The notes beneath the pieces are model-generated. The model saw only the letters and a program-made list of their open reading frames with translations. It was not told where the DNA came from and did not search any database. From contig JACRIR010000248.1 of NCBI GenBank assembly GCA_016215705.1, positions 1 through 42,967 of the forward strand: a stretch of 42,967 bases of DNA. The letters are read 5' to 3'. Positions 150-26,667 of the stretch are shown here, in pieces. Source of the DNA: Candidatus Poribacteria bacterium (GTDB lineage Bacteria > Abyssobacteria > SURF-5). The position numbers and the translations under genes are program-made. Positions within the stretch are counted from its first letter, which is position 1. Each line of letters opens with the position of its first letter.

Positions 150-2891
150 CTATGGTTCAAACTGGTCGAACAAGGGTTGAAGCAGCGGGAGTCCGGCCGC
201 CGACCTACCACCAGCGCCGACCGCTGGGACGCGCGAGATTTCTTCGCATTGTTTTGCGCCGCCTATGACGAACTTGTTACAATCGCCGATGATACCGATT
301 TCGTCACCCTTTGCGCCATTGAGCAGGAACAGCTCGGGATGATCGAAAGGCGCGGATTCGTTCTTGACGCGTGGATCGGTGAGCGCCAACAAGAACGAAA
401 TCAGGGCTTCTTCTTTTTCCTCGTTCATGCCCGGGATAACGTCAATCAATGGCGCCAGATTGTCAATGTTTTCTTCGTGGAAGTCGCCGCCGCGCACATA
501 GAAATCGACTACTTGCCGCAAGCTTGCGATTCCGCCATTGTGGAAGTAGGGCGCGGTAAGCTCTACGTTCCGCAGAGACGGTGTCTTAAAAGCGCCGTCG
601 ACCGCCACTCTGTCGAGGTCACATGATTCCTCGCAGGGCAGTTCGGGGACATACTGAGCGATTTCGGGCGGCAAGAGTCCATCGCGTTGCAGCAACGCCA
701 TACGCGAGAACGACAGCGGGTAGCCAAAAGCGCCGGTCCCGCCCTTGCCGATATCCTCGTCAGTCGGCCTGACGCCAAGGTTGTAATAGCCTGTGTCGTA
801 GAAGGCTTCGCCGACGGCCATTCCCATGCGCTCGATCAAGCCTTCCAACGTGAACACGAGTTGCCCGCGGATTTCGCCCTCGGGATAGGCGGCGGTTTCA
901 ACGGTGATATAGGCGTTTCCCTTCATCAACGCTTCAATCGCCTGGGACATGCTTATCACCGCCTCGCTCGGGATGAAATCAAGCGCGGTAAGGGTGCCGG
1001 TCAGTTGGATCGAGAAGGCCGTGTTCGAGAGGACAAACATGACCGGGCCGTTTTCTCTGGCGGCGCCGTAATGAATCCTGGCGCCTGTCACGTCGGCGAT
1101 GTTTCGCACTTTCAGGAAATAGGAAATGAGCGAACGCTTCGAGTCAACGTTCAAGACCGCGTCTCCGCTCGCAGAAGTCGCCACGGGGGGAACCACTTGA
1201 ATTCCGCTCAAAGGCGAATCAATGGGCAGAACGGCTTCCACCAGCAAATGGCCGCGTATCTCGCCTTCCGGGTGGGCGAGCGTGGTTATATTTGCATAGG
1301 TCTGGCCGTCCAACATGGCGTTTATCACGTCGTCGAGTGTGTTGATTCCCGGAGCGGGGATGAGATCGGACTGGTTCAAGGTTCCGGTCAACTGGGTGTC
1401 AAAACCCTGGTTCGTCAAGACAAAGAGGGCCGGTCCGTTCTCACCCGGGTTTCCAAGATTGATCGTCGCGCCCGTTATTCCGGAGATGTTGACGACCTCA
1501 ACTTCGAATTCGATCTGTGTGCGAGCGGGATTGAATATGAGACTCGTCTCCCCGCTGGCAGCGGTCGCAACCGGCGGGATTTCCTGGTTGCCGCTCATAT
1601 TTGCCACCATTCCCAGCGGTTCGGGTGGATGGACGGTGGCCGTAACCGTAGCGATCGTAAATTCGGGGCCGCCGTGGCAGAATACGCATCTGCCGGTCGT
1701 GAGGAAAACCTCGAGGCCTTCCAGTTGTTGCTCGTTTAGCGCGGCAGTCTGCCCTTCCTGGTATCGGTCAAAGGGAGTGTCGTTCGATACGAGGGTCGCC
1801 TCATAGGCCTGAACGGCCAGTCCGAAGAACAAAGCGAAGTTGGCCTCCATCTGCGTGTACTCGTTAGCGGCCAGCGCGCGGGGAGGCAACGGCGCAATCT
1901 GGCGAAGGCCGCTTGCGTCGATCGTTACAATTTGATTTGTGTTCTGCCAGAATTGCGACCTGAATGCCTTCTTAATCATGTCTGAATAATTAGGTGTCTT
2001 AAGGCCGCGAAGCCCTTGCGCCTGGCCGTTTTTCAGAGTGGCGCGGGAATACCGGCCGAGCAATTGGTCTTGCGTATGCACGAGTTGCTTCGCGAGCGGC
2101 CTCAACCGCACCATTTTCTTTCCAATATCGGCAAATGCGCGACCGCTAAACGCCATCTCGACGTCGCTCATCGGCGGGCCGACAGCTTGCGAAGCAAGGC
2201 TCGAGTCGGGAAGTCGCACCAATTGCTCCTGCAACAAGCCGTTCACATCTTTGAATACTCCGTTTGTCGTGTCCGTAGGTCCAACCGGATTCACACCATT
2301 GAACACGTTGTTTGCGCGCCCGTCCCAGAAATTGGCGAAATTGAAGACGGCGTTAATGACGGAGGGAGCGTTTCGCCCTGTAGACTGTCTGACATTCACG
2401 CCATTCACATTAAAGATGGGGTCCGAAACGGGTTTTCCCGCTTCCACCGAACTGCCGGGACGTATGGCGACAAAATCATGACGAAAGACCCCCTGCGAGC
2501 CAGCCACGTCGTTGCTGTCGAAGAGGACATCCGAATGGCGATCATTCGGGTTTGAGAGTTGGTGGAACGGAAAATCATCCGTCTGGAGAGTATGATTGGG
2601 CAGATCGACCTCGAATTGCTGGTCGCCGGCGGCGAGGCCGGGACTGAGTTGATTCTTGAGACGGCTGTCGGCTCCGGCGTTGAAATGGCAGGAGGCGCAG
2701 GCGGTAATTCCGTCGCTTCCGACCTGCATGTCCCAGAACAGGGCTTTGCCCAATTCGATGGCGGCGACCTCATTCTGAACAAAATCAGCCAAATTCGGAG
2801 GCTTCGGAGTGGGAATTGTTTTCAGTGGCGCAGGCGCAAAGGGGTTTGTGGGGAAATCAGCGCCGCAGAGCGACATCACCAAGGCTATCAT
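150..2891 (-). CDS. Diheme cytochrome c peroxidase/MauG-like protein with two CHRD domains
   Basis: A large secreted c-type cytochrome of 913 residues from the chosen start. Heme motifs are CASCH (65-69) and CVFCH (402-406). The peroxidase/MauG signatures FWDGRA (188-193) and the C-terminal KTPSLRNVELTAPYFHNGG (769-787) are intact. Between the second heme and the C-terminal part sit two CHRD domains (about 434-551 and 563-679), each ending in PEGEIRG. The family reduces peroxide or oxidises a periplasmic or surface partner; the substrate here is unknown. The ATG at 2891 is chosen because AGGAG lies 7 nt upstream. It leaves only a very short hydrophobic leader (MIALVMSLCG), and the frame stays open upstream to 3188 through repeat sequence, so the start is uncertain. 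It is the last gene of module 1, after the secreted protein at 3667-4902, and paralogous to 9202-12087 and 20733-23633. Confidence 0.88.
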   Translation of the reverse strand: MIALVMSLCGADFPTNPFAPAPLKTIPTPKPPNLADFVQNEVAAIELGKALFWDMQVGSDGITACASCHFNAGADSRLKNQLSPGLAAGDQQFEVDLPNHTLQTDDFPFHQLSNPNDRHSDVLFDSNDVAGSQGVFRHDFVAIRPGSSVEAGKPVSDPIFNVNGVNVRQSTGRNAPSVINAVFNFANFWDGRANNVFNGVNPVGPTDTTNGVFKDVNGLLQEQLVRLPDSSLASQAVGPPMSDVEMAFSGRAFADIGKKMVRLRPLAKQLVHTQDQLLGRYSRATLKNGQAQGLRGLKTPNYSDMIKKAFRSQFWQNTNQIVTIDASGLRQIAPLPPRALAANEYTQMEANFALFFGLAVQAYEATLVSNDTPFDRYQEGQTAALNEQQLEGLEVFLTTGRCVFCHGGPEFTIATVTATVHPPEPLGMVANMSGNQEIPPVATAASGETSLIFNPARTQIEFEVEVVNISGITGATINLGNPGENGPALFVLTNQGFDTQLTGTLNQSDLIPAPGINTLDDVINAMLDGQTYANITTLAHPEGEIRGHLLVEAVLPIDSPLSGIQVVPPVATSASGDAVLNVDSKRSLISYFLKVRNIADVTGARIHYGAARENGPVMFVLSNTAFSIQLTGTLTALDFIPSEAVISMSQAIEALMKGNAYITVETAAYPEGEIRGQLVFTLEGLIERMGMAVGEAFYDTGYYNLGVRPTDEDIGKGGTGAFGYPLSFSRMALLQRDGLLPPEIAQYVPELPCEESCDLDRVAVDGAFKTPSLRNVELTAPYFHNGGIASLRQVVDFYVRGGDFHEENIDNLAPLIDVIPGMNEEKEEALISFLLALTDPRVKNESAPFDHPELFLLNGAKGDEIGIIGDCNKFVIGGAKQCEEISRVPAVGAGGRSAAGLPLLQPLFDQFEP

Positions 2892-2907
2892 GGCGGCGCT
2901 CCTAATG

Positions 2908-2942
2908 AAAAGGGGAAAGATGAAAGGAACAGGGCGAAAGGG
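2908..2942 (+). repeat. Purine-rich GGCGAAAGG repeat (family F1), solo arm
   Basis: It is a purine-rich stretch ending in GGGCGAAAGGG, related to the inverted arms of the four-helix-bundle elements at 27957-28408 and 31414-31579. Read on the minus strand it lies in frame just ahead of the likely cytochrome start and would encode FPFRPVPFIFPLF, so it may add hydrophobic residues to the leader if translation begins upstream. Confidence 0.65.
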
Positions 2943-3189
2943 AAAAACCGAAGAAGAAGAGGGAATACCTTGCTCCGATCTTGTCGGAGGTCGCAATGAT
3001 CGCGGGGGGGGCGCGCTTTCTTTCGCAGTCAATCTGCCGCGCGTAGGTCGCACGCTCCGAAGAAAGAGGCGAAAGGCGAAAAGAGAGTTACGAGTTGCGA
3101 GTCGCGAGTCGCGAGTCGGGATTTGGGAAACAGGGAAATGGAACCGACTAGACTGAAACTTCATTTTCTTCCTCCTACCAGGAAACATC

Positions 3190-3666: not shown

Positions 3667-4902
3667 CTACAGTTTGTCTACCGACAGCGGCCTGGTGGCA
3701 GAACCACCCAGAGACGACTGGACTGTAATGAACGGCGGAGGCGTGGTGATGCCCCCGTTAAAGAGAATCTGTCCATCTACGAGGTTGCCTATACCAACGG
3801 CTGTCAGGACTGCCGACGGATCGCTCGACTTCGCCCTTATAAGGAGGCGCTGGCCGGTGGAGTCGTATGCGTATGCCGAGATGTTGACCTCGTCCGTGAG
3901 AGGCACGCTAAGGGTCGTGGGCGGATTGCCTACCGGCGTCGCGGTGACGGAAACAGTGGCAGGCAAAGTGACGGCGCCCGTTCTAGTGATATGAGCGTAG
4001 GCTCTGCCGGAGTTCATCGTCATGAGCGCCGGAGTCGGAGTGATCGTTGGGCCGAGGTCGACCGTGGCGACATTGGCCGGATCGGTGAGCGCGAACACGT
4101 CGATCGACACTCCCTGCGCGGTGCGGGTGAAAGTGGCGCGTTCGAGGACAAGTCCTGCCGGAACAGCGCCGGAGAAGACCTGCCCTTGCACGGCAAACAG
4201 ATTTGTCTCTACGACACGGCCGCCAAGGCCATCAAGGTTGGAACCGGGCGGGCCGACAACGCGGAAGAGGTTGTTGCCGGTCGGGCTACCCGTGACGGTG
4301 GAGTCAACGAGCGGGTTGCCGACAAAGCCCGCGGGCGCTGCAGGCGCCACAGCGGTGAGGAAGGGTCCCACGTCGCCTGCGAGAGCGGACGCGAAATTAG
4401 GCGTCGGCAGACCTATGTCCGTTGTGAAGTTGATGGCGCGAATACCGGCCGGAACGTTTTGGAATACTTCCGTCCCAAACGGATGGACGACGGTATAGGT
4501 GCCGGCAACCGGAGTGTCTATCCGGATGCGGACGCGGCTGAAGACAAGTTGGGTTCCATCCGCCGGATTTCCGTCGGCGCTGGCGAATGCGGCTTCCAAC
4601 GCCAAGACGAGCAGAGCGTTGCCTGACGGAATATTTATGAGAGAATCGGCGCTCCAGTAGAAGGCTTCTGCGCCGAAGCCGATTTGTTGCGAGAAGGCGT
4701 TCCCCGGAATGGGGGGATCAGCGACACAGTTTAAGGCATCGAGGCACAACTGAAGCGAAAGCCCCGTTCCGTCCTGATACCAGAGGGGGAACCCGTTTTG
4801 CGGGTTTGTGGGACCGACGGCAGCGAGGGCCGCCAGCGCCGCATGCGAGCAACTGAAAATCAGCATGACAGCAAGCATTATTACTGACACTTTCCTCAAC
4901 AT
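3667..4902 (-). CDS. Secreted protein of unknown function (paralogue of 23892-25145)
   Basis: The protein has 411 residues from the ATG at 4902, which is preceded by GGAGG at a 9-nt spacing. The N-terminus MLRKVSVIMLAVMLIFSCSHA is a clear signal peptide, perhaps cleaved after AALA. The mature part starts AAVGPTNPQNGFPLWYQDG and carries an early Cys pair (CLDALNC). The rest is rich in small, polar and beta-prone residues, with repeated TLPATVSVT and TAVGIG-like strands that suggest beta-sandwich folds. I do not recognise the family and see no heme or metal motif. It is about 60 percent or more identical by eye to 23892-25145. In both places it lies directly upstream of a CHRD-bearing cytochrome, so the two products probably work together at the cell surface or in the periplasm. 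Confidence 0.85.
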   Translation of the reverse strand: MLRKVSVIMLAVMLIFSCSHAALAALAAVGPTNPQNGFPLWYQDGTGLSLQLCLDALNCVADPPIPGNAFSQQIGFGAEAFYWSADSLINIPSGNALLVLALEAAFASADGNPADGTQLVFSRVRIRIDTPVAGTYTVVHPFGTEVFQNVPAGIRAINFTTDIGLPTPNFASALAGDVGPFLTAVAPAAPAGFVGNPLVDSTVTGSPTGNNLFRVVGPPGSNLDGLGGRVVETNLFAVQGQVFSGAVPAGLVLERATFTRTAQGVSIDVFALTDPANVATVDLGPTITPTPALMTMNSGRAYAHITRTGAVTLPATVSVTATPVGNPPTTLSVPLTDEVNISAYAYDSTGQRLLIRAKSSDPSAVLTAVGIGNLVDGQILFNGGITTPPPFITVQSSLGGSATRPLSVDKL

Positions 4903-5212
4903 TTTCCTTTTCCTCCAAATGTTAGTTTTCACTGATCACGATGTAATTCACAGAACCACTATTCGTTCGGCGATAATCCCACCTCCTCCCGCATAAGAAG
5001 GGGAAAAGATGAAAGGAACAAGGCGAAAGGGAGATTCTTCGCTTCGCTCAGAATGACATTAGGGGTCATACCCTCGCTTCATCTTTCTTGCGCAATTGAC
5101 CACAAGCCCAGCGTGGTCAGGCGCTCCTAATGGTGTTAGAATTTGCATTGTTACCCTTCGTGCGGGCGACTCACCGAGTCGCCCCTATGTTTGTTCTTCA
5201 GTCCAAGATCGG
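4903..5212. other. Intergenic region with three repeat types
   Basis: No gene seen. It contains a GGCGAAAGG-type purine repeat (about 4999-5031), directly abutting a GATTCTTCGCTTCGCTCAGAATGAC motif (about 5033-5057) that recurs inverted near 14054-14078, and a GGGCGACTC/GAGTCGCCC palindrome (5164-5184). Confidence 0.6.
5164..5184. repeat. GGGCGACTC/GAGTCGCCC palindrome (family P2)
   Basis: 9-bp arms (5164-5172, 5176-5184) with a 3-nt loop, followed by CCTATG. A related copy with core CGACTCGCGAGTCG lies at 41743-41756. Confidence 0.7.
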
Positions 5213-7267
5213 TTACGGTTGGAACTGGTTCACGGGACTTTGGAGCGGAGACAGCCCGATTCCGAGCCGGCCGAAGGTTCCCACTGCTTGGACTCGGAAC
5301 GCTTGTTCACATTGTCTGAAACCGGCCTGCACGATCACCTCGCAGTCTCCGACCACGTTATTTTCGTTTCCACGAGCGCCATTCGGGACAAACAATTCCG
5401 GATGGTCGAACGGAGCGCCTTCGTTGCGGACGCGGTCGTCGGTGAGCGCAATGAAGAACGCGACGAGAGCATTCTTCTTGTCTTCACTGCCGATCAACTG
5501 ACCGATTTCGTTTATGTCCGGGTCCAGGTCAGCGACATTCGCCTCGGGGAAATTGCCTCCCCGCGCATAGAAATCCACGACTTGTCTGAGAGTCGCCATT
5601 CCACCGTTATGCATGTAGGGCGGAGTGAGATCGAGGTTGCGCAGACCGGGGGTCTTCACTGCCCCGTCGACGGCCACTCTGTCCGGAGGATTGGGTGTTC
5701 CGGGCGGCAGGTCGGGAACAAACGCAGCCAAGCCGGCCGGGAGTTGTCCGTCGCGCTTCATTATTGCAAGCCTTGAGAACGAGAGCGGGAACCCGAACCC
5801 GTCGAGTCCGCCTCTGCCGATGTCTTCGGCGGTCGGTCTGACACTGATGTTGTGCATTCCGAGGTCGATGAAGGCGCTGCCCTGGGTCATGTCAATCAGA
5901 CTGATGGGCGAGCCCTCGGCCGCGATTGCGGTAAACGTATGGTTGGAGAACTCGGCGCCGCTGTGGCACTCGGAGCACATGGTTCCGCCGGAAGTAAAGA
6001 TGCCGAGTCCATCTTTTTCCTGGGCGGAAAGCGCGCTGGCATTTCCTGCGAGGTAGCGATCGACGCGCGAGTCGTCGGAGACAAGAGTTGATTCGTACAT
6101 CTGGACTGCGAGCCCCCAGAAGAATGCGAAGTTGGCTTCCATCTGTGTGAACTCATTCGCGGCCAGAGGGCCACCAGGATTGGGAGCGATCTCGCGAACG
6201 CCATCGTTTATCACAACGATCTGTGCGGTGTTATTCCAGAACCTGGGCTGGAAGGCGGCCTGGATCATCTGGGGATAAGTGGAAGTGAGCCCGCGCAGGC
6301 CCGTTGCGCGGTCCCGCGCGTCCAGTTTAGCCCTCGAGAGGGCGCCCAGCACGCTGTCTTGCGGATGAACAAGCTGCTTGTCGAGCGGTCTCAGAGCCAG
6401 CATCTTCTTGCCAAGGTCGGGCCACGTACGGCCGCCGAATGACATCTCGAAGGGGCTGAGCGGAGGGCCGACCGCTTGCGAGGCCAGGCTCGAATTGATT
6501 ATTCTCACGAGTTGTTCCTCCAGGGTTCCGCCATTATTCACAAATACGCCGTTCTGGAGGTCGGACGGCCCGAACGGATTGTTACCGTTGAAGATGTTAT
6601 TTGCGCGGCCATCCCAGAAATTGTTGAAATTGAACACGGCGTTTATCGCGGTCGGTGTGTTCCGAGGTTCGACGCGCCGGATGGTGACACCGTTGACGTT
6701 AAACACGGGATCGTCCAAGGGTGTCCCTACATCCGTTGCGTTACCGGGATTGACCGCCTCGAACTGGGTCAGGAACACGCCTTGTGATGAAGCGACGTCG
6801 TTGCTGTCGGATATCACGGCAGAGAGATGGTCATCCGGGTCTGCCAACTTGTGGAAGGGGAAGTTCGCGAGGTTCAGGACATGGTTGGGGCCGCCGGTCT
6901 GGAATGTTTCGTCGCCGGCATTCAGGCCCGGGCTCAGTTGATTCTTGAACCGCCTGCCGTCGGCGCCCGCCACGAAATGGCATGTAGCGCAAGCCTGGAT
7001 GCCGTCGCTCCCGACCTGCATATCCCAGAAGAGGGCCTTGCCGAGAGCTATGGAAGCGTCGCGGTCGGCGACATAGCTCGCAAGGTCCGGCGGCTCAGGG
7101 ATGGGAACCTGGCTGAGGGGCGGCGGGTTCGCGGCAAATGCTGAGCCTAGCATGAAGCCGGCCAGAGATAACGATGCAAGCAGGATCGCCGCGAAGGTCT
7201 TCGTGCTGCGTGGACGTTTCGACTTGACGAAAGGCCCATCCAATCCACATAAGTGCGACTTGAACAT
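5213..7267 (-). CDS. Large diheme cytochrome c peroxidase/MauG-like protein
   Basis: The protein has 684 residues, with AAAGGAGG placed 8 nt before the ATG at 7267. A signal peptide spans roughly residues 22-46 (TFAAILLASLSLAGFMLGSAFA). The two c-heme sites are CATCH (93-97) and CSECH (431-435). NFWDGRA (216-222) and, near the C-terminus, LRNLDLTPPYMHNGG are classic peroxidase-family signatures. Unlike its three relatives in the window it has no CHRD domains: the sequence passes straight from the second heme into the C-terminal part. It is about twice as long as typical CcpA or MauG, the size class of surface-associated members. It is the first structural gene after the kinase/regulator pair at 7747-9079. 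Substrate unknown. Confidence 0.9.
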   Translation of the reverse strand: MFKSHLCGLDGPFVKSKRPRSTKTFAAILLASLSLAGFMLGSAFAANPPPLSQVPIPEPPDLASYVADRDASIALGKALFWDMQVGSDGIQACATCHFVAGADGRRFKNQLSPGLNAGDETFQTGGPNHVLNLANFPFHKLADPDDHLSAVISDSNDVASSQGVFLTQFEAVNPGNATDVGTPLDDPVFNVNGVTIRRVEPRNTPTAINAVFNFNNFWDGRANNIFNGNNPFGPSDLQNGVFVNNGGTLEEQLVRIINSSLASQAVGPPLSPFEMSFGGRTWPDLGKKMLALRPLDKQLVHPQDSVLGALSRAKLDARDRATGLRGLTSTYPQMIQAAFQPRFWNNTAQIVVINDGVREIAPNPGGPLAANEFTQMEANFAFFWGLAVQMYESTLVSDDSRVDRYLAGNASALSAQEKDGLGIFTSGGTMCSECHSGAEFSNHTFTAIAAEGSPISLIDMTQGSAFIDLGMHNISVRPTAEDIGRGGLDGFGFPLSFSRLAIMKRDGQLPAGLAAFVPDLPPGTPNPPDRVAVDGAVKTPGLRNLDLTPPYMHNGGMATLRQVVDFYARGGNFPEANVADLDPDINEIGQLIGSEDKKNALVAFFIALTDDRVRNEGAPFDHPELFVPNGARGNENNVVGDCEVIVQAGFRQCEQAFRVQAVGTFGRLGIGLSPLQSPVNQFQP

Positions 7268-7746: not shown

Positions 7747-8106
7747 TCAACAGAAGGATTCAGATGTTCGCGGGCATATGGGAATCCGCGCGGAGGCGTG
7801 GAGAGGCGGCCGCGCCTCCAGCACATGAAACATGTATTCTTTTCTCTTGTGCATGGTGAGAACCAGGACTTTCACTCCCGGCTTGCTCATTTTGATTTGG
7901 CGGGTCGCTTCGATTCCGCCGAGTTTGGGCATGGAAATATCGAGTATGACCATTTCCGGTGTCGCGCCCTTCAATATTTCAAGAAGCTCGAGACCGTCGC
8001 CTGCCTCCTCCGTCACGACCATGTTATCCGACCCATCGATAATTTTCTTTAATCCGCGCCTGAGCAGGATGTGATCGTCAGCCAGTATGATGCGGTATGG
8101 ATTCAT
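7747..8106 (-). pseudogene. Truncated NarL/FixJ response regulator (receiver domain only)
   Basis: The 119-residue product has a normal receiver start, the acidic pair D10/D11, the phospho-acceptor D56 (VILDISMP) and LVLTMHKRKEYMFHVLEA. It matches the intact regulator at 18281-18946 until residue 98, then turns into unrelated RPPLHASARIP and stops. The rest of the receiver and the whole LuxR-type HTH are missing. The break coincides with a GGAGGCG/CGCCTCC palindrome (7792-7798 with 7813-7819). The ATG at 8106 has GGAGG at good spacing and overlaps the kinase gene by 29 nt, so the pair was once a normal operon. It may be dead, or may act as a phosphate sink without DNA binding. Confidence 0.85.
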
Positions 8107-9079
8107 TGGTCACTGCCTCCGGATTAATGGGAACGGCCAACTCTATTCTGGTTCCTTTTCCTTCATGACTAGTTACGGCAAGAGAGCCTCCCAGCATCTT
8201 CACCCGTTGGCGCATAGCCGTCAAACCTATACCGCCACCGGGACGGGTGGTCTCGGCCTGTTTAGTGTCGAATCCCTTTCCGTCGTCTTCGATCCGGAAC
8301 ACAACTTCGCGCTCGTTGTTCGCGACTACAACGGACACACGGGAGGCGTCGCCGTGTTTCCCCGCGTTTGTGAACGCTTCCTGAAAAATCCTATATAGCA
8401 GAATCTGATTTCTTTCCGGAAACAAGTGATCGATTGCGTTCATTTCGAAGAGAATTCTTGTGTCCGAATGTCTGGAAAAATCCCGTGCCAGCGATTTAAG
8501 CGCGGCGGTCAGTCCGAGGTCCTCGAGCAGGGCAGGGCTCAAGTCATGCGACAGTCTCCGGACATTTTCAACGATCTGATCGACAAAGCGTAGGACCTCG
8601 TCGCAATCCTCTTTCAGCGCGGCGCGGTTGTGTCCCAATTTCTTTGCGATGGATCGGATATGGAGTTTCAGCACCATCAGGGCCTGGCCCAATTCGTCGT
8701 GGAGTTCATATGATATCCTCTTGCGCTCTGTTTCCTGCGCAGTAAGCAGGTGTGAAGACAGAGATTGAAGCTTGTTCTCCGATTCCCTGAGTTCCGTCGT
8801 TCGTTCTTGGACCCGTCTTTCCAGTTGCGCGCGCGCTTCACACAACGCCTGTTCCACGCGCCTGCGTTGTGTGAACAGTCGGGAAACTGTGACGCCGAAC
8901 AAAATAAAGAGGGCCAGGATTACTGAGCGAATATAGGCCTCATGGCGTGGCATTCTCAGGATGAGAAGGCCCAGAAACGTGCCGGGATAAAAGAAGAGAT
9001 AGTCCAAAATTGCGTCAATGATCCAAGCGAGAAGTCCGAGGATTATTGACGAAGCGATTATTTTGGATTCGGTTTTCAT
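8078..9079 (-). CDS. NarL-family sensor histidine kinase
   Basis: The protein has 333 residues from the ATG at 9079; an in-frame TTG lies at 9088. The N-terminal 70 residues form two hydrophobic segments around FFYPGTF and PRHEAYIR, an architecture shared by all three kinases in the window. A coiled-coil linker (RRVEQALCEARAQLERRVQERTTELRESE) leads to the HisKA_3 box YELHDELGQAL and an HATPase domain with EAFTNAGKHG (N box), EDDGKGFD (G1) and GGIGLTAM (G2). The enzyme should autophosphorylate on the box His and pass the phosphate to a NarL-type regulator. Its own regulator (7747-8106) is truncated, so it may signal through the intact one at 18281-18946. The stimulus is unknown; no periplasmic ligand domain is visible. 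Confidence 0.92.
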   Translation of the reverse strand: MKTESKIIASSIILGLLAWIIDAILDYLFFYPGTFLGLLILRMPRHEAYIRSVILALFILFGVTVSRLFTQRRRVEQALCEARAQLERRVQERTTELRESENKLQSLSSHLLTAQETERKRISYELHDELGQALMVLKLHIRSIAKKLGHNRAALKEDCDEVLRFVDQIVENVRRLSHDLSPALLEDLGLTAALKSLARDFSRHSDTRILFEMNAIDHLFPERNQILLYRIFQEAFTNAGKHGDASRVSVVVANNEREVVFRIEDDGKGFDTKQAETTRPGGGIGLTAMRQRVKMLGGSLAVTSHEGKGTRIELAVPINPEAVTNESIPHHTG

Positions 9080-9201
9080 ACACAACAAAGAAGCTCATTC
9101 ACGGTCCTGCCGTCTGCAATGCCGCAGACGTGGTCATGCACTGAGAATGATGCGTGGCTTCCGACCCTTGACCTTCGACTTTGCGCTCTTTGTGTTTCCG
9201 C

Positions 9202-12512: not shown

Positions 12513-12551
12513 AAAATGGGGGACACGATGCCGCATCGTGTCCCCCATTTT
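12513..12551. repeat. P1 palindrome, 18-bp perfect stem
   Basis: 12513-12530 pairs perfectly with 12534-12551, loop CCG. The outer arms AAAATG/CATTTT differ from other copies yet remain complementary. Confidence 0.9.
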
Positions 12552-15852: not shown

Positions 15853-15919
15853 ATGCTTTTTCCTTTCTTGAGAGCGCAGATTGCTGCGCCTGTACGGGCA
15901 ATTGCACTCGGATTCGTCC

Positions 15920-15958
15920 GGAATCGGGGACATGATGAGACATCATGTCCCCGATTCC
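15920..15958. repeat. P1 palindrome, 18-bp perfect stem, GGGGACATGATG form
   Basis: 15920-15937 pairs with 15941-15958 around AGA. The core change from CACG to CATG is compensated on the opposite arm. It sits between the two multicopper-oxidase-like genes, where a transcript would form a strong hairpin. Confidence 0.9.
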
Positions 15959-17592: not shown

Positions 17593-17768
17593 AACTGCCT
17601 CCATCTTTGAGGGACCGGTCCGAGCTTCGGGTCCGTCCCTGCCCCAATTAGTGACCTCCGACATTTCTTGAGCGACAAACCCCCACTTCAGGTTTGTGCT
17701 TGAAGCCGATATCGAGCTTTAGGTGAATCCTCCGCGCATGCCCACCCGTGTCACCACCTCCCAAAAGA

Positions 17769-18280: not shown

Positions 18281-18946
18281 TCATTGCATCATGTCAGTAT
18301 CCGATGCGTAGCCTCTGCGGATTGCGTATTTAACGAGGTCCGCCACGTTACGTATGTTCAACCGTTTGGCGATACTGGCGCGGTGATGCTCGACGGTGCG
18401 AATGCTGATAAAGAGCTCAGAGGCAATCTCTTTGCTGGATTTCCCTTCGGTCAGGAGTTTCAAAACGTCCTTTTCGCGGTCCGTCAGGCAATCGAGTCGT
18501 GGCTTGTCGTTGCGGCGGCAAGTCTCGACCAGGTCGGTGGTCAGTTCCTTGAGAAAGGAAGGTGAGACATATGTTTTGCCGTTGCGGATTGTCTCGACAG
18601 CGGAGAGAAGCTCTGTGTCCGTGTCTTCTTTCAAGAGGTATCCATCAGCGCCTGCGGCAAGCGCTCGATAGAAATATTCTCTCCTTCTGTGCATGGTCAA
18701 GATCAGCACCTTTATGGCGGGGTGGTTCTGCTTGATTCTTTGTGTTGTTTCAATTCCCCCGAGGCATGGCATACTGAGGTCGACGATGGTCATGTCGGCA
18801 GGAGTGTGGTCGAGTAAGGCAAGAAGCTCAAGGCCGTCACCTGCCTGGGCGACAACGGCCATGCCATCGAATTCGTCTATGATTCTCTTTATTCCCATTC
18901 TCAGCAGGGCGTGGTCGTCAGCAAGCATAATGCGATAGGAACTCAT
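18281..18946 (-). CDS. NarL/FixJ-family response regulator
   Basis: The protein has 221 residues from the ATG at 18946, with a strong AGGAGG at 8 nt; the open frame upstream is palindrome sequence. The receiver has D10/D11, phospho-acceptor D56 (TIVDLSMP), LILTMHRRRE and K near GYLLKED. A LuxR-type HTH follows (LTDREKDVLKLLTEGKSSKEIA, then ISIRTVEHHRASI). It is the only intact response regulator in the window, while three related kinases are present. This makes it the best candidate to read all of them and to bind the shared TACCTAT heptamers. It lies 151 nt downstream of its kinase, separated by two P1 palindromes. Confidence 0.95.
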   Translation of the reverse strand: MSSYRIMLADDHALLRMGIKRIIDEFDGMAVVAQAGDGLELLALLDHTPADMTIVDLSMPCLGGIETTQRIKQNHPAIKVLILTMHRRREYFYRALAAGADGYLLKEDTDTELLSAVETIRNGKTYVSPSFLKELTTDLVETCRRNDKPRLDCLTDREKDVLKLLTEGKSSKEIASELFISIRTVEHHRASIAKRLNIRNVADLVKYAIRRGYASDTDMMQ

Positions 18947-19001
18947 TATCTCAGCCTCCTTTTCTCGGTTTTCGCTTCGCAAATTCCGCAAAATATCCTC
19001 G

Positions 19002-19040
19002 GAAAGTGGGGACACGATGCCGCATCGTGTCCCCACTTTC
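19002..19040. repeat. P1 palindrome, 19-bp perfect stem
   Basis: 19002-19020 pairs perfectly with 19022-19040 around one base. It lies between the kinase and regulator genes; the next copy begins 16 nt further on. Confidence 0.92.
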
Positions 19041-19055
19041 TCCAATGCCGTGTTC

Positions 19056-19098
19056 GCAAATGCGGGGACACCATGCGGCATGGTGTCCCCGGATTTGC
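19056..19098. repeat. P1 palindrome, GGGGACACCATGC form
   Basis: A 14-bp perfect inner stem (19063-19076 with 19078-19091) is extended by GCAAAT/ATTTGC after one mismatch. The distal arm touches the stop codon of the kinase gene. Confidence 0.9.
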
Positions 19099-20120
19099 TA
19101 GGCCGGAACTGCAAGGGCTATTTTTGTCCCTTTTCCCGGCTCGCTTGAGATTTTAAGAGAAGCGCCCAGCATGCGGGCGCGCTCGTCCATAGCCTCGAGC
19201 CCCAAGCCCTTGTCCCCGGCATATACGGCTTTAACCTTTTGGACGTCGAAACCTTTTCCGTTATCTTCCACAAAAAAGAGTGACCCTCCGCAGTCACGGC
19301 AGGCGCGGATTGAAACGCGGCTGGCCTGAGCGTGTTTTCCTATATTGGACAGCGCCTCCTGGAAAATTCTGTAGACAATCAGGTGAGACTTGCGCGCGAA
19401 CAGGTTATCGACTTCGTCGATATCAAGCAATACATCTATGTTGCAGTGCGCAGCGAAATCCTCGACGAGGGACCGGATTGCGCACACGAGCCCGAGGTCT
19501 TCGAGGGTCGAGGGGGTCAGATCGTGGGAAAGCCTGCGAAGGCTTTCGATAATCTGATTTGCGCATTTCTGGGCTGCTTCGATGTCGGTCTTAACGGATT
19601 GCCTCTCTTCGCACAGCTTATTCTCGACCGCCCGCAATTCCAGTTTCAGCAAAGTCGTGATTTGCCCCAGATCGTCATGTAATTCCAGCGCAATTCTCCT
19701 CCGCTCCCGCTCCTGGGCGGTAAGGAGATGGCCGGACAGGAGTCGAAGTCTTTTTTCGGATTCCCGCAACTCATTTTCCATTCGCTTGCGTTGCGTCATT
19801 TCTCGTTCGAGAAGGGTGTTGGCTGCCGATAGGCTGGCAGTCCTCTCCTCGACGCGTTCTTCCAGTTTGTCACGAGACTCTCGCAACGCGTCTTCCGCTC
19901 GTATACGCGCGGAAAGCAGGTTGGACGCTATTATCCCGAATCCTCCAAACAGGAGCAGGATGAATGATCGAATATAGAGTTCATGGTGGGGCACTCCCCA
20001 CAGAAGCAACTGAAAAAAAGAGCCTCGGTAAAAGATGAAATAATCCGCCCCGGCGTCGATCAGCCAGGCGAAGAGCCCCATGACGAGCGACAGGATGAAA
20101 ATACTTGATCCGGTCTTCAT
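19098..20120 (-). CDS. NarL-family sensor histidine kinase
   Basis: The protein has 340 residues. Two N-terminal membrane segments flank FIFYRGSFF and PHHELYIRSF. A coiled coil (about 75-130) follows, then the HisKA_3 box LELHDDLGQITTL, LRRLSHDLTPSTLEDLGL, and an HATPase with EALSNIGKHA, EDNGKGFD and GLGLEAM. It has the same layout as 8078-9079 and 25573-26667. Its partner is the intact regulator immediately downstream. No extracytoplasmic sensor domain is visible, so the signal is probably sensed in or at the membrane. Confidence 0.94.
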   Translation of the reverse strand: MKTGSSIFILSLVMGLFAWLIDAGADYFIFYRGSFFQLLLWGVPHHELYIRSFILLLFGGFGIIASNLLSARIRAEDALRESRDKLEERVEERTASLSAANTLLEREMTQRKRMENELRESEKRLRLLSGHLLTAQERERRRIALELHDDLGQITTLLKLELRAVENKLCEERQSVKTDIEAAQKCANQIIESLRRLSHDLTPSTLEDLGLVCAIRSLVEDFAAHCNIDVLLDIDEVDNLFARKSHLIVYRIFQEALSNIGKHAQASRVSIRACRDCGGSLFFVEDNGKGFDVQKVKAVYAGDKGLGLEAMDERARMLGASLKISSEPGKGTKIALAVPA

Positions 20121-20170
20121 TGCATTCTCTGACAGACTCTGTCTAGGTCAAGTTAATTTTGTTGGTATCT

Positions 20171-20198
20171 GTAAGGGCACGGCGCGCCGTGCCCCTAC
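20171..20198. repeat. GGGCACGGCG/CGCCGTGCCC palindrome (family P4)
   Basis: A 28-bp palindrome with one mismatch per arm. A perfect copy lies at 20664-20693. Each is followed on the plus strand by TTGACAGCACACTAG or TTGACAGAACACTAG (20233-20247, 20712-20726), so the two are copies of a larger unit on either side of the small ORF at 20244-20459. Confidence 0.85.
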
Positions 20199-20638: not shown

Positions 20639-20726
20639 GAGTGTCCCGTAATTGTTGATCAACTGTAGGGGCACGGCGCGCCGTGCCCCTACAGGAACCG
20701 ACAAAACAGAGTTGACAGAACACTAG
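20639..20726. mobile_element. Miniature inverted-repeat element with a perfect 30-bp central palindrome
   Basis: The left end reads AGTGTCCCGTAATTGTTG and the right end, on the other strand, AGTGTTCTGTCAACTCTG. These are imperfect terminal inverted repeats that share AGTGT-C-GT-A. The centre (20664-20693) is a perfect 30-bp palindrome. The left 20 bases recur exactly at 34770-34789 inside the DUF2723 gene. The AGTGT ends preceded by A or TA recall IS630-type elements, but no transposase is present and a target duplication is not clear. Confidence 0.55.
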
Positions 20727-20732: not shown

Positions 20733-23633
20733 TTATGGTTGAAACGGGTTGAATATCGGACCCAGCGGCGGGAGGCCGGCGGCGGGCCGACCGCCTGCGC
20801 CGACCGGCGGAATCCGTAGGATTCCTTCGCACTGTTTGAAACCACCGATGCGGAACAATCCGCAATCGCCGATAATCTGTGTTTCGTCTCCTCTCGCGCC
20901 ATTGGGCACGAATATTTCCGGATGGTCGAACGGCGCTATCTCATTGCGCACGCGATCGTCGGTAAGCGCCAACAGGAATGAGACCAGGGCGTTTTTCCTT
21001 TCCGCCGTCATGTTGGGGATAACGGCTATGAACGGCGACAGATTGTCGATATTCTCGTCGCGGAAGTTTCCCCCGCGCGTGTAGAAATCCACTGACTGCC
21101 TCACGGTTGCCATGCCGCCGTCCCGGTTATAGGGGCCGGTCAGCTCGACATTGCGAAGGGTCGGCGTCTTGATGGCGCCGTCAACAGCGACCCTGTCGAG
21201 GTCGCACGGAGTCCTGCAAGGCAGGTCCGGCGTATATTGCGCGATTTCGGGCGGCAGCAATCCCTGACTCTTGAGGAGGGCGCGGCGAGAGAATGAGAGC
21301 GGATAGCCGAACGGGTCGGTCCCGCCTCTGCCGATGTCCTCGAAAGTCGGTCTCACTGCGATATTGTAATAGCCAGTATCGTAGAAGGCCTCGCCCACAG
21401 TCATTGCCATTCGCTCGATGGCAGCTTCTGCTGCCAGCGCCAGCGGCCCGCGAATCTCGCCCTCGGGATGGGCGGCGGTTTGCACGACGACATAGGTCTT
21501 TCCGCTTATGATCGCGTCAATTACTTCGGCCATACTGGCCGCTCCAGCAGTCGGGATAAGGTTGGCTTCGCTAAGAGTTCCGGCAAACGGACTCACGAAA
21601 GCCGTGTTCGCGAGGACGAAGATGGCAGGTCCGTTTTCACCGGGCAGGCCAAGATGCATGGTTGCGCCGGTAACGCCGGTTATGTTTTTTGTTCTGAGTC
21701 CGTAAGAAATGAGTTGTTTGTCCGCGTCGATAGTGACGATAGCGTTGCCGGTCGCGGCGGTAGTAACAGGAGGAACGATCCGGTCGCCAAGCAGGACGGA
21801 ATCGAAAGTCAAGAGGGTGTCATTCAGTAGATGGCCGCGTATCTCGCCTGCCGGATGGGCGGCGGTGGCAATGTTGACATAGGTGTCGCCATTCTTCATC
21901 GCATTGATCGCATCGGCAAGGGTGGCGATGCCGGGGGCCGGAATGAGGTCAGTCTGAGTCAACGTCCCCGTCAATCGGGTAATGAAGCCCGTATTCGTAA
22001 GAACGAAGATGACGGGCCCGTTTTCTGTCGTAGAGCCGAGATGGACAGTTGCGCCGGTGACGCCGGCTATGTTTGCCGCCTCGATCTCGAACGCAATCTG
22101 AGTCAGCGCAGCATCAAATATGAGGCCGGCTTTCCCGCTGGCGGCAGTCGCAACGGGAGGCACTTCCTGTTGGCCGCTCATGTTCGCGATCACCCCCGGC
22201 GGCTCCAGGATCAGGCCTGCCGTGGCCGAGACTGAAGCGAGAGTGAATTCAGGACCGCCGTGGCAGTTTATGCACCTGCCGTCAAACAAGAAGATGTCGA
22301 GACCTTCGAGTTGCTGTGCGGTCAGCGCCGTAGTATCTCCTTCTTGATACTTGTCGAACGGCGTGTTATCCGAGACGAGGGTGCTCTCATACATTTGGAT
22401 GGCTAGGCCGAAGAATAGAGAGAAGTTGGCTTCCATTTGCGTATATTCGTTAGAGGCGAGCGGGCGGGCGGGGCGTCGCACAACTTGCCGTATTCCATCT
22501 CCATATCGGAACGAGCGGGGGTCTTGCGTTTCGGGGCGGTGGATATCTTCCGTGCCGGGTGCAAATCTGATCATCTGGCTGGTGTTCTGCCAGTATTCCG
22601 GTCTGAAAGCGGTTGTAATCAGGTGGCGGTACGTGACATTGAGCCCGCGCTGTCCCTTAACTTTTCCCTGCGCATCCAGGAAGGCGCTGGAGTAGATGCC
22701 CAAGAAGCTGTCGAGGGGATGAACCAACTGTTTTGCAAGCGGCCTGAGCAGCAGCATTTTCTTTCCGATATCGGCAAAGGGGCGACCCGTGAAAGACATC
22801 TCGAAGTCGCTCATAGGGGGACCGACGGCCTGTGAGGCGAGGCTTGAGTTGGGAATTCGCACAAGGCGCTCCTGCAACGTTCCATTCACATTCACGAATA
22901 CGCCGTCGGTCAGGTCTGACGGTCCGAACGGATTAACGCCATTGAACACTTGATTGGCGCGCCCATTCATAAAATTTTCAAAATTGAAGACGGCATTGAT
23001 TACCGTGGGAGCATTTCGCGGCTCGACACGGCGAAGGTTGACGCCATCGAGGTTGAATACCGGATCAAAGATCGGAAAGCCTGATTCGATTGAGCCACCG
23101 GGTCGAATAGCGGTGAAATTGTGAAGGAGGACACCCTGTGACGAAACGATATCGTTGCTGTCCGAAATCACGGTTGAATACTGATCATCCGGATTTGACA
23201 ACTTATGGAAAGGGAAATCACTAAACTGCAAAGTCTGGTTGGGCAGTCCGGTCTGAAAAGTTTCGTCGCCCGCGAGAAGTCCGGGGTTGAGTTGGTTTTT
23301 GAGGCGATTATCCGCCCCCGCGTGGAAATGGCAACTCGCGCACGCCGCTATGCCGTCGCTGCCGACCTGCATATCCCAGTAGAGGGCTTTGCCCAGCGCT
23401 ATGGCTGCGCTTTCATTCTGAACAAAGTCAGCAAGATTGGGCGGTTTCGGAACAGGAATTGTTTTCAGCGACGGAGGAGCGAATGGGTGTGTAGGGAAGT
23501 CAAAGCCGGAAACCACGCATGCCAGGATTATGGTTATTGACAATAGAATCCACGGTTCTCTTTCATTCCGGCCGGATGATGGGATTTGTTCACTTTGCGC
23601 AAGCGGGCTGCCCTTCTTAGCTTCGTTCCTCAT
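20733..23633 (-). CDS. Diheme cytochrome c peroxidase/MauG-like protein with two CHRD domains, partly degenerate signatures
   Basis: The protein has 966 residues from the ATG at 23633, with a GGAGGAGAGG about 11 nt upstream. A hydrophobic leader is at about 28-43 (PWILLSITIILACVVSG). Heme motifs are CASCH (98-102) and CINCH (453-457). CHRD-like domains span about 485-602 and 614-731 and end in AGEIRGH and EGEIRGP. It is closest to 150-2891; both begin DFPT(N/H)PFAP after the leader. Two family signatures are altered: NFWDGRA is NFMNGRA (220-226), and PYFHNGG is PYNRDGG near the C-terminus. The heme sites are intact, so binding is likely but activity may differ. It follows the secreted protein at 23892-25145, as the paralogue pair does in module 1. 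Confidence 0.88.
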   Translation of the reverse strand: MRNEAKKGSPLAQSEQIPSSGRNEREPWILLSITIILACVVSGFDFPTHPFAPPSLKTIPVPKPPNLADFVQNESAAIALGKALYWDMQVGSDGIAACASCHFHAGADNRLKNQLNPGLLAGDETFQTGLPNQTLQFSDFPFHKLSNPDDQYSTVISDSNDIVSSQGVLLHNFTAIRPGGSIESGFPIFDPVFNLDGVNLRRVEPRNAPTVINAVFNFENFMNGRANQVFNGVNPFGPSDLTDGVFVNVNGTLQERLVRIPNSSLASQAVGPPMSDFEMSFTGRPFADIGKKMLLLRPLAKQLVHPLDSFLGIYSSAFLDAQGKVKGQRGLNVTYRHLITTAFRPEYWQNTSQMIRFAPGTEDIHRPETQDPRSFRYGDGIRQVVRRPARPLASNEYTQMEANFSLFFGLAIQMYESTLVSDNTPFDKYQEGDTTALTAQQLEGLDIFLFDGRCINCHGGPEFTLASVSATAGLILEPPGVIANMSGQQEVPPVATAASGKAGLIFDAALTQIAFEIEAANIAGVTGATVHLGSTTENGPVIFVLTNTGFITRLTGTLTQTDLIPAPGIATLADAINAMKNGDTYVNIATAAHPAGEIRGHLLNDTLLTFDSVLLGDRIVPPVTTAATGNAIVTIDADKQLISYGLRTKNITGVTGATMHLGLPGENGPAIFVLANTAFVSPFAGTLSEANLIPTAGAASMAEVIDAIISGKTYVVVQTAAHPEGEIRGPLALAAEAAIERMAMTVGEAFYDTGYYNIAVRPTFEDIGRGGTDPFGYPLSFSRRALLKSQGLLPPEIAQYTPDLPCRTPCDLDRVAVDGAIKTPTLRNVELTGPYNRDGGMATVRQSVDFYTRGGNFRDENIDNLSPFIAVIPNMTAERKNALVSFLLALTDDRVRNEIAPFDHPEIFVPNGARGDETQIIGDCGLFRIGGFKQCEGILRIPPVGAGGRPAAGLPPLGPIFNPFQP

Positions 23634-23884: not shown

Positions 23885-23891
23885 CCACGAA

Positions 23892-25145
23892 TCACTGTAT
23901 TTTGTCGACTGTCAGCGCCTTAGTGGCGGAACCGCCGGCCGAGGATTGAACCGTAATGCTCGGCGGAGGCGTTGTGATGCCCGCGTTAAAGAGTATCTGG
24001 CCATTGACCAGGGGACCAATACCCACGGCGGTGAGCGTCGGGGCCGGAGTTGCCGTATCACTCGACTTCGCCCGTATCAGGAGTCGCTGGCCGGTAGAGT
24101 CGTATGCGTAGGCGGTGATGTTGACTTCGTCAACCAGTGGCTTGGTAAGGGTCGTCGGCGGATTGCCTACCGGTGTCGAGGTTACGGAGACAGTTGCCGG
24201 CAGAGTGACTGCGCCCGTCCTGGTGACATGAGCATAGGCTCTCCCGGAATTCAACGTCATGGCAACAGGTGTCGGAGTGATTGTCGCCCCGAGGTCCAAT
24301 GTAGCAGTATTGGTCGGATCGGTAAGCGCGAAGACGTCAATCGCGACTCCCTGCGCATTGCGAGTGTAAGTGGCGCGCTCGATGACAAGGTTCGCCGGAA
24401 CAGCGCCCGTGAAAATCTTGCCTTGCACCGCAAAGAGGTCCGTCTGCACCGTGGTGCCGCCAAGTCCGTCAAGATTAGAACCCGCAGGGCCCTGGACGCG
24501 GAAGAAGTTGTTGCCGGTCGGGCTGCCCGTGACGGTCTGGTCAACCAGAGGGTTTCCAACGAAGCCCAGAGGGGCCGCAGGCGCAACAGCGGTGAGGAAT
24601 GGTCCGACGTCGCCGCTCAAAGCGACATTGAAGGCCGGAGTAACAGCGCCTATGTCAACGGTGGAATTGATGGCGTTCGGCCCTGCTACTACATTCGTGA
24701 AAACTTCCGTGCCGAACGGATGCGTCACAACATATGTGCCGTTGACAGGGGCATCAATCCTTATGCGGAGCCGGCTGAACACAAACTGGTCTCCATTAAG
24801 CGGGTCTCCAAGACCCCAGGAGGATTCCAGCGCCAGGACAAGGATGGCACTGCCGGACGGTATGGTGATAAGGGAGTCGGCGCTCCAATAGAAAGCTTCC
24901 GAGCCGAAGCCGACTTGTTGCGAGAAAGCATTTCCAGCAATCGGCGGGTCGAATGCGCACACTCCGTTCACACCATCACCATCGAGACACATCTCCAGCG
25001 CCAAACCGGCGCCGTCCTGGTAGAAAAGTGGGAACCCGTTTTGCGGGTTGACGGGGCCCACGGCCGCGAGGGCCGCGAAAGCCGAGTGTGAAAGGCCGAT
25101 AACCAACATGACGGCCAGCATGATTAACGAGACTTTCCTAAACAT
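23892..25145 (-). CDS. Secreted protein of unknown function (paralogue of 3667-4902)
   Basis: The protein has 417 residues from the ATG at 25145, which has GGGAGG about 9 nt upstream; an earlier ATG at 25169 lacks this. Signal peptide MFRKVSLIMLAVMLVIGLSHSAFA. The mature protein begins AAVGPVNPQNGFPLFYQDG and has Cys in CLDGDGVNGVC. It shares long blocks with the module 1 paralogue: NAFSQQVGFG, FYWSADSLI, HPFGTEVF, GDVGPFLTAVAPAAP, SPTGNNFFRV, GRAYAHVTRTGAVTLPATVSVT. A beta-rich, extracellular or periplasmic fold is likely. Function unknown; the constant position before a CHRD cytochrome suggests a partner or anchoring role. Confidence 0.86.
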   Translation of the reverse strand: MFRKVSLIMLAVMLVIGLSHSAFAALAAVGPVNPQNGFPLFYQDGAGLALEMCLDGDGVNGVCAFDPPIAGNAFSQQVGFGSEAFYWSADSLITIPSGSAILVLALESSWGLGDPLNGDQFVFSRLRIRIDAPVNGTYVVTHPFGTEVFTNVVAGPNAINSTVDIGAVTPAFNVALSGDVGPFLTAVAPAAPLGFVGNPLVDQTVTGSPTGNNFFRVQGPAGSNLDGLGGTTVQTDLFAVQGKIFTGAVPANLVIERATYTRNAQGVAIDVFALTDPTNTATLDLGATITPTPVAMTLNSGRAYAHVTRTGAVTLPATVSVTSTPVGNPPTTLTKPLVDEVNITAYAYDSTGQRLLIRAKSSDTATPAPTLTAVGIGPLVNGQILFNAGITTPPPSITVQSSAGGSATKALTVDKIQ

Positions 25146-25572
25146 TTTGTTTTTCCTCCCTGCATTCATTGATACACCGCGTTAGTTTCCTTTGACCACA
25201 ATGAACTCAAACATCCTTTTGTTCGCTTGCCGGTAACTTCACCTCCTCCCGAATCAAGAAAGTTTCGCTCGGATTCGCGTTGGCCGTTTGAAGGCGTTGT
25301 ATGCGGATTGTAGCCTTCCGGGCGGCCTTTCCAATTAGACCGTTTTTGTCTCATTATTATGCAAATTTTTTTAGCGCACCAAGCACGCTCTGTCTCTGCC
25401 CGAAAGAACATGGCGTCAAAGGAGTCAGCGGAATCGAGAATAAACGACGTGCAATAATGCGCGAGGGTGGTCATTTCTCTTACCCGGTTTTATATGTTCT
25501 CTCCGGAAATTCCGGTGTGAGTAATTATACTAACCCAAATATAGCACTGTTTCGCATAGGCGCAAGGGGGAA
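25146..25572. other. Intergenic region between kinase and secreted protein gene
   Basis: No convincing gene. The only promoter-like element I see is TATAAT on the minus strand (complement of 25524-25529), with no good -35 and no TACCTAT heptamer at the spacing found elsewhere. A 102-codon frame at 25166-25474 has no recognisable features and no strong ribosome binding site. Confidence 0.5.
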
Positions 25573-26667
25573 TTACGGGTTTTTCTTGGTCGTCGCGTCT
25601 TTTGTCTCGATCTTTTCGTCTGTGTTCGTCTGAGCGGTCTCAGACTGAATCGGGAAGGCCAGGGATATTCTGGTTCCTTTTTCGGGGGCGCTCGATATTT
25701 CGAGAGCGCCGTCGAGCATGCGGGCGCGCTCGTTCATGGTGGCGAGGCCGAGGCTTGCGCCGGCGCGGCAGCGCGCTTCTGCCTGCTTCATATCGAATCC
25801 CCTTCCGTCGTCTTCGACTCGAATGACAGCATGGGTATTCCGGACCGTGAAGATTATGGAAATATGCGCAGCCCGCGCGTGTTTTTCAACGTTTGTAAGC
25901 GCCTCCTGAAAAATCCTGTAGATGATGATTTGGAGGTTTCGAGGGAAAAGATGGTCCACTTCCTCCATTTCAACTGATATCTTTGCGCAAGAGTGTTTTC
26001 CGAAGTCATTGACAAGCTTGCGAAGCGCGGCAGAGAGGCCAAGGTCCTCAAGGATGCAGGGGCTTAGGTCGTGTGACAGCCTGCGGATGTTGTCGATGGT
26101 CTGGTCAATATATCGAAGCGTCTCTTCGAAATCTCTTTTCAAGTCCGCTTGGTCATCGCGCAGTCGCTTCTCGTATGATTTCAACTGGAGTTTCAGGACG
26201 CTCAGCGATTGTCCGAGGTCGTCGTGCAACTCGAGCGAAATACGCCGACGCTCGGTTTCCTGCGCGTTCATGAGGCGGAAAGAGAGTTGGTGCAGTTTCT
26301 TCTCGGATTCCCGCAATTCGGCCTCAGCGCGATTGCGCACGATTATCTCCTGTCTGAGAAGCTGGTTGGAATCGAAAAGCTCAGCGGTGCGCTCTACGAC
26401 TCGTTTCTCGAGTTCGCCATGAGCCACCTGGAGGTCCTCCTGGATTCGATCTCGCTGCGCAACCATGCGTGACATCACTATGCCGAACCCGGTGAGGACA
26501 CCGATAAAGAGCAGCCGCATGTATATCTCGTCGCTTGGCAGGCGCAAGATCAGCGAACCGAGGAACGCATCTTTGTGAAAGATCAGGGTATCCATCACGG
26601 AGTCAATGATCCACGAGAACAATCCGAACACTATCGAGAACATAATGATTGTGTTTTTGGCCTTCAT
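25573..26667 (-). CDS. NarL-family sensor histidine kinase, no adjacent regulator
   Basis: The protein has 364 residues, with GAAGGAG about 11 nt before the ATG. Two membrane segments surround IFHKDAFLGSLI and PSDEIYMR, as in the other two kinases. A coiled coil leads to the HisKA_3 box LELHDDLGQSL, IRRLSHDLSPCILEDLGL, and an HATPase with EALTNVEKHA, EDDGRGFD and GLATMNERARML. A charged tail follows the catalytic domain (SETAQTNTDEKIETKDATTKK). Unlike the two other modules there is no regulator gene next to it: the next gene is the secreted protein at 23892-25145. It may phosphorylate the regulator at 18281-18946. Confidence 0.93.
   Translation of the reverse strand: MKAKNTIIMFSIVFGLFSWIIDSVMDTLIFHKDAFLGSLILRLPSDEIYMRLLFIGVLTGFGIVMSRMVAQRDRIQEDLQVAHGELEKRVVERTAELFDSNQLLRQEIIVRNRAEAELRESEKKLHQLSFRLMNAQETERRRISLELHDDLGQSLSVLKLQLKSYEKRLRDDQADLKRDFEETLRYIDQTIDNIRRLSHDLSPCILEDLGLSAALRKLVNDFGKHSCAKISVEMEEVDHLFPRNLQIIIYRIFQEALTNVEKHARAAHISIIFTVRNTHAVIRVEDDGRGFDMKQAEARCRAGASLGLATMNERARMLDGALEISSAPEKGTRISLAFPIQSETAQTNTDEKIETKDATTKKNP

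Follow-up and report, generated by a model that had tools for sequence, protein, structure and literature searches.

The window analysed here is a stretch of 42,967 nucleotides (contig C193, positions 1-42967) from a genome of 5.47 Mb that is 92% complete and assembled in 270 contigs. It holds a cluster of secreted redox genes in which diheme proteins, a multicopper oxidase (MCO) pair and two copies of an unknown secreted protein (USP) lie among sensor kinases. A first-pass annotation, made from the sequence alone, had described this cluster as three modules, each headed by a kinase with the same two-helix sensor. All genes of the cluster are encoded on the minus strand, at or near the coordinates given by that annotation, and the genes it named were recovered, but it had overlooked the NarL-type regulators RR1 and RR2. 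In transcription order the genes fall into group A (HK3, USP3, CHRD-diheme 3), group B (HK2, RR2, McoB, McoA, short diheme, CHRD-diheme 2) and group C (HK1, RR1, large diheme without CHRD, USP1, CHRD-diheme 1).

25573-26667, minus strand: HK3, HisKA_3 sensor kinase with a two-helix N-terminal sensor (Pfam, alignment; tblastn for regulators)
23892-25169, minus strand: USP3, secreted all-beta (Ig-like) protein outside any named family (Pfam/NCBIfam, AF2, fold matches; signal peptide by eye)
20733-23633, minus strand: CHRD-diheme 3, large MauG-type diheme enzyme with two CHRD domains, Met replacing the interheme Trp (Pfam, alignment)
19098-20120, minus strand: HK2, HisKA_3 sensor kinase, sensor type as in HK1 and HK3 (Pfam)
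18281-19114, minus strand: RR2, NarL-type response regulator, receiver plus GerE (Pfam, tblastn)
15967-17664, minus strand: McoB, putative half of a split MCO (Pfam, alignment, PDB profile match)
14395-15933, minus strand: McoA, putative other half of the split MCO (Pfam, alignment, PDB profile match)
12703-14295, minus strand: short MauG-like diheme protein (CXXCH motifs, Pfam, MauG alignment)
9202-12087, minus strand: CHRD-diheme 2, large MauG-type diheme enzyme with two CHRD domains (Pfam, alignment)
8078-9088, minus strand: HK1, HisKA_3 sensor kinase, sensor type as in HK2 and HK3 (Pfam)
7747-8106, minus strand: RR1, receiver domain only (Pfam, tblastn)
5213-7267, minus strand: large MauG-type diheme enzyme without CHRD (Pfam, alignment)
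3667-4932, minus strand: USP1, 75% identical to USP3 (pairwise comparison)
150-3188, minus strand: CHRD-diheme 1, large MauG-type diheme enzyme with two CHRD domains (Pfam, alignment)

The RR2 open reading frame (ORF) overlaps the HK2 gene, and its true start probably lies near position 18946. The first ~95 residues of the CHRD-diheme 1 ORF are absent from the other copies; the N-terminal part of the short diheme ORF is repeat-derived, with the mature part running from about residue 120. HK1 starts only 113 bases past CHRD-diheme 2, so the borders between modules are soft.

The McoA-McoB pair and its operon

The two copper proteins of the first-pass annotation are both present, but they are probably one enzyme rather than two. 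Domain 1 of McoA in the window carries HTIHWHG and YFYHCHRNTVQHFEYGL, corresponding to the type 1 (T1) copper site plus half of the trinuclear site, and the ligands of its domain 2 are lost. McoB, which begins with a twin-arginine translocation (Tat) motif (RREFI), is without ligands in domain 1 and carries SMHIHANH and PMHDHSEPSQ in domain 2. The same division holds in other genomes. McoA domain 1 contains HTIHWHG and YFxHCHxNTxxHFExG(L/M) in 8/8 sequences, with the domain 2 His motifs lost; McoB has SxHxHxNH and PxHxHxExxQ in domain 2 and neither in domain 1 in all seven sequences (five aligned, plus those of loci L021 and L029).

Profile searches of the PDB align McoA with domain 1 of 2zwn, a two-domain laccase, and of its relatives; McoB matches 2zwn domain 1, without the ligands, and, weakly, domain 2. 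Two-domain MCOs build the trinuclear site from two protomers, and type C enzymes carry T1 in the N-terminal domain (PMC13151041). The pair shares with type C enzymes (2zwn, 3g5w) the cupredoxin domains, the N-terminal T1 site and the ligand motifs of both domains, and the type C ligand set is complete when McoA and McoB are taken together. It differs from them in that the ligands are divided over two gene products served by one Tat signal, whereas the type C definition calls for both ligand sets on one polypeptide forming a homotrimer. McoA and McoB are thus probably a single two-domain MCO split over two genes with complementary ligands, and the simplest reading of the motifs is that a type C oxidase was duplicated and then reduced to complementary halves. 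The Tat motif is found on all six McoB sequences that have an N-terminus and no signal peptide was seen on McoA, suggesting co-export of the two proteins. The alphaproteobacterium Indioceanicola profundi has the same split on a plasmid; its McoB counterpart, annotated as a hypothetical protein, has, unlike other McoBs, a Cys in the last motif.

The genes for the split oxidase, the large diheme enzyme and USP form one compact operon in other phyla. Scanning 84,980 species genomes with the diheme alignment yielded 447 relatives, and locus counts refer to the best 80 of these 447. USP is found in 12/80 loci, McoA in 8/80 (one an edge fragment), McoB in 7/80, and USP together with the MCO pair in 5/80, so that, contrary to what would have spoken against a single system, the parts are not scattered independently with their proximity unique to this genome. 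Base rates in other genomes are low: USP occurs in 3 of 289, McoB in 1 of 385 and the large diheme protein in 2-3 of 385, four further genomes of the latter sample matching only the CHRD part. A genome size of 3.0 Mb was assumed in estimating chance linkage. The four genes (USP, diheme, McoA, McoB) are consecutive on one strand in L025 and L034; L021 has one extra gene within the set, L029 ends with the set at a contig edge, and in L097 two diheme and two USP genes lie further down. The superfamilies involved are already known. The open-licence PMC literature that we searched held no match for either the conserved operon or the division of ligands between two genes, both of which are apparently undescribed there. 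We regard the split oxidase as the most interesting part of the system.

The diheme enzymes and the secreted protein

The earlier count of five diheme proteins holds, their designation as peroxidases does not. All five have two CXXCH motifs and score above the curated cut-off of PF03150. Classical bacterial cytochrome c peroxidases have a Met ligand at the corresponding heme; with Tyr at the axial position in all five, that class is ruled out. The short diheme protein aligns to MauG over its full length (E 3e-53) with MauG Tyr294, Trp93 and Glu113 all matched (numbering by position in the printed chains). In the large family, the Tyr at the place of MauG Tyr294 is present in 85/85 members, the acid-base Glu is among the columns conserved to at least 95%, and the interheme Trp is kept in 79/85. 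It is also kept in four of the five window proteins, the fifth (CHRD-diheme 3) having Met; BthA likewise is without it (Ser257), and in BthA Tyr-His heme ligation accompanies a bis-Fe(IV) state with peroxidase activity retained (PMC6405878). Judged by sequence, the window proteins are of the MauG/BthA type, sharing with MauG and BthA the two c-hemes and axial Tyr, and in most cases the acid-base Glu and interheme Trp.

Four of them come from a large subfamily that appears to be unnamed. Heme-heme spacing is 332-354 residues in the large family versus 195 in the short protein, which was dropped from the tree for coverage (86 diheme sequences aligned, 85 in the tree). Scores reach 59-100 bits for the MauG equivalog TIGR03791 (cut-off 443.85) and 98-122 bits for the best NCBIfam match, the MbnH family TIGR04039 (cut-off 362.85), and none of the five passes an NCBIfam cut-off. 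The window contains no mau genes, and the partners differ from those of MauG, being an Ig-like protein and a split MCO. In the MbnH/MbnP system, a di-heme enzyme oxidises a Trp of its partner. The cluster resembles that system in placing a MauG-type enzyme next to a secreted partner protein, and differs from it in the sub-cut-off MbnH score and in a USP without an invariant Trp.

In three window enzymes the loop from heme 2 to the axial Tyr holds two CHRD domains and is 391-396 residues long; none of the other 83 aligned sequences exceeds 171. The insertion was seen only in window proteins, with 0/80 related loci showing it. The pairing of USP with a CHRD cytochrome in modules 1 and 3 is present as first described, but CHRD is not confined to these, occurring in module 2 as well, and the proposed neighbourhood search found the pair only here, the diheme proteins elsewhere having no CHRD. 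To our knowledge, the role of CHRD in bacteria is unsettled, and this cluster places the domain inside an enzyme.

The two unknown secreted proteins were confirmed as relatives without a family in Pfam or NCBIfam, and a PDB sequence search with USP gave no match. An AlphaFold2 (AF2) model built on an alignment of 12 relatives is all-beta, with a mean predicted local distance difference test (pLDDT) of 78.7. Its best match among solved structures is the Bap C region (Z 8.6, root mean square deviation 7.7, 139 aligned), and many immunoglobulin (Ig)-like adhesins and receptors match at Z 7-8; the model shows an Ig-like arrangement and nothing beyond that. Relatives in Desulfuromonadales have long tails that look dockerin-like, and a weak USP-like match lies elsewhere in the source genome (C67:13088-13369). 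Genome G110 encodes five USP-type domains (L161-L164) with no such heme or MCO genes nearby, indicating that the USP family is wider than the operon.

A putative second secreted family, grouped by N-terminal likeness as judged by eye and lacking a whole-protein Pfam match, also adjoins the large diheme gene (L020 6582-9497 and 12342-15269; L022 382-2769; L035 2471-4591; L036 4732-7350).

Duplication, kinases and repeats

The four large window diheme proteins are 53-64% identical to one another and form one clade in the 85-sequence tree (support 0.894), which, with the linkage of the parts in other phyla, bears out the proposal of one secreted oxidation system that has been duplicated. Within the clade, CHRD-diheme 1 pairs with CHRD-diheme 3 (0.999), and CHRD-diheme 2 with the large enzyme without CHRD (0.987), implying that CHRD was lost, gained twice or exchanged after duplication. 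Duplication was correctly proposed, but the idea of three separate designs falls, because operons elsewhere combine the parts in one unit; the modules resemble fragments of a single ancestral operon that was duplicated and partly dispersed. Neither of the two genomes of the same family (G001, G002) has large diheme proteins, USP or the sensor, so the system is accessory in the source lineage. That lineage is isolated: among 97 relatives of the source genome, two share its family and the rest only its domain.

The three same-sensor kinases among secreted redox genes on one strand were confirmed by Pfam and alignment, with identities of 46-49%. The sensor type has five copies in the source genome, three in the window, a fourth on contig C77 beside the genome's only other large diheme gene and a fifth elsewhere, a distribution that amounts to more than chance. 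On C77 (L109, 9291-13414) that diheme gene faces an intact regulator and the same-sensor kinase, giving a fourth module.

HK2 and RR2 make up a whole NarL/HisKA_3 two-component pair (HisKA_3 plus HATPase; receiver plus GerE). The receiver of RR1 ends after about 98 residues, beside the intact kinase HK1; no GerE output domain lies downstream and tblastn found no remnant of one, and RR1 may be either degenerate or a single-domain regulator. No response regulator was found beside HK3 by tblastn. The domains are those of NarL/HisKA_3 systems in general, from which the cluster differs in having three kinases with one whole and one truncated regulator. The sensor is a general module and was rejected as a mark of the system: it is absent from all 80 related loci and, in the 289 sampled genomes, is present in 19, where 14 sampled stretches (15 of the 28 sensor matches) contain no diheme, MCO or USP gene. 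The distant genome G287 encodes a HisKA_3 kinase with another sensor, followed by a regulator that shares 52% identity with RR2 and by a large diheme gene. The claim that a kinase heads each module thus has some support as a recurring linkage of kinase and regulator to the diheme gene, but not for this sensor type. The large diheme protein of G287 exceeds 1300 residues and has an N-terminal extension (L198; G287 C131 1-6285).

The window contains several copies of a 27-base palindrome, GGGGACACNNTGNNNCANNGTGTCCCC, in which the variable positions remain complementary.

100-126, 12519-12545, 14355-14381, 19008-19034, 19064-19090, 27003-27029 and 32914-32940: palindrome copies

The source genome has 357 matches with at most one mismatch, ruling the palindrome out as an operator of the cluster, and the two same-family genomes have none. 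It looks like a REP-type dispersed repeat that spread recently, with some copies overlapping or extending the starts of ORFs. Between CHRD-diheme 3 and HK2, two inverted repeats of 52 bases (20147-20198 and 20665-20716; 85% complementary, 466 bases apart) perhaps delimit a small mobile element. Next to the cluster, positions 27012-30828 hold a divergent CbbQ/NorQ-type AAA gene and a VWA gene, separated by the gene for a 23S rRNA-intervening-sequence-type protein.

Possible function of the system

The duplicated extracytoplasmic oxidation system is real; its biochemical role we infer. Our first choice, tentative and somewhat short of an even chance, is that a conserved extracytoplasmic oxidation operon, duplicated locally in the window, acts on surface or matrix polymers. 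McoA would supply T1 and half of the trinuclear site and McoB the other half, which would place O2 reduction where the two gene products meet. Folding would take place in the cytoplasm, and the signal of McoB would carry both proteins out together through Tat. The large MauG-type enzymes, with their Tyr-His heme and acid-base Glu, would be driven by peroxide into a high-valent state and take electrons from aromatic or phenolic groups. The Ig-like USP would be a matrix or surface protein, serving as substrate or scaffold, with the CHRD insertions as binding or positioning domains. The joint effect of these parts would be the oxidation of surface or matrix polymers, probably with cross-linking or modification. 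NarL-type kinase-regulator pairs would switch the modules, and HK1 and HK3, without an intact partner, may feed RR2.

Exopolysaccharide-export relatives lie near 5 of the 43 non-cyanobacterial loci (Pfam checked for two), but several observations weigh against this reading, beginning with the finding of no exopolysaccharide genes in the window. An invariant Trp or Tyr, as a mark of a MauG-type substrate, is missing from USP, which also occurs in G110 and G228 without heme or MCO genes. Most diheme loci have no USP (68/80) or no McoA (72/80), 16 of the loci being shorter than 10 kb, and all 37 cyanobacterial ones show neither USP nor MCO. On the side of the oxidase, the match to McoB domain 2 is weak, and the AF2 model of McoB is unusable (mean pLDDT 39).

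The main rivals are environmental phenolics and metals. Phenolics or polymers such as lignin-like matter, humics or polyisoprene might be oxidised for food or detoxification, with USP binding the polymer. The laccase-type two-domain relatives of the MCO would fit, and the Ig-like USP could be a binding module, but no glycoside hydrolase or aromatic catabolism genes were found in the window, and the RoxA-like rubber oxygenase model PF21419 reaches 19.8 bits in one protein only, below its cut-off of 26.7. We consider this explanation unlikely, if worth keeping in view.

Oxidation of Mn(II) or Fe(II) at the cell surface, like MCO-dependent manganese oxidation, seems distinctly unlikely. The Leptothrix mof operon comprises an MCO, an isomerase and a cytochrome. 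The cluster shares with it an MCO adjoining c-type cytochromes, and in L019 a PPIC-type isomerase lies between USP and the diheme gene. The mof MCO, however, is single-chain and the one here split, and we know of no USP or MauG-type enzyme in mof. No relation to a manganese-oxidase MCO was found, no profile comparison having been aimed at one; MauG-type enzymes have no known role in metal oxidation, and the window is without a metal-specific gene.

Defence against peroxide and oxygen, in which kinase-controlled peroxidases and the oxidase would clear H2O2 and O2 outside the cytoplasm, is less probable still. It draws on the PF03150 membership of the diheme proteins and on the peroxidase activity that BthA keeps (PMC6405878), but the heme is Tyr-ligated instead of carrying the classical high-potential ligand, and detoxification needs neither very large inserts nor linkage to an Ig-like surface protein. 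A chance neighbourhood of unrelated secreted redox genes, which would account for the absence of the system from both same-family genomes and for a CHRD fusion and sensor not common to the 80 loci, is contradicted by conserved operons that in several phyla join USP and the diheme enzyme to the split MCO, at frequencies well beyond the base rates, and is scarcely credible.

Oxidation of surface or matrix polymers could be narrowed to an extracellular 'tanning' machine, in which a two-protein MCO with one Tat signal and giant MauG-type enzymes, some with CHRD, oxidise an Ig-like matrix protein to give cross-links or protein-derived cofactors at the cell surface. As a joint statement, this is unlikely to be right in every part. 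If the conserved operon and the split oxidase are read correctly here, the system offers a heteromeric oxidase made by nature, with an interface copper site open to testing. It would also supply a candidate partner for a MauG-like branch, so far without a name, that ranges from cyanobacteria to Verrucomicrobia, and a handle on the role of surface or matrix oxidation in uncultured lineages.

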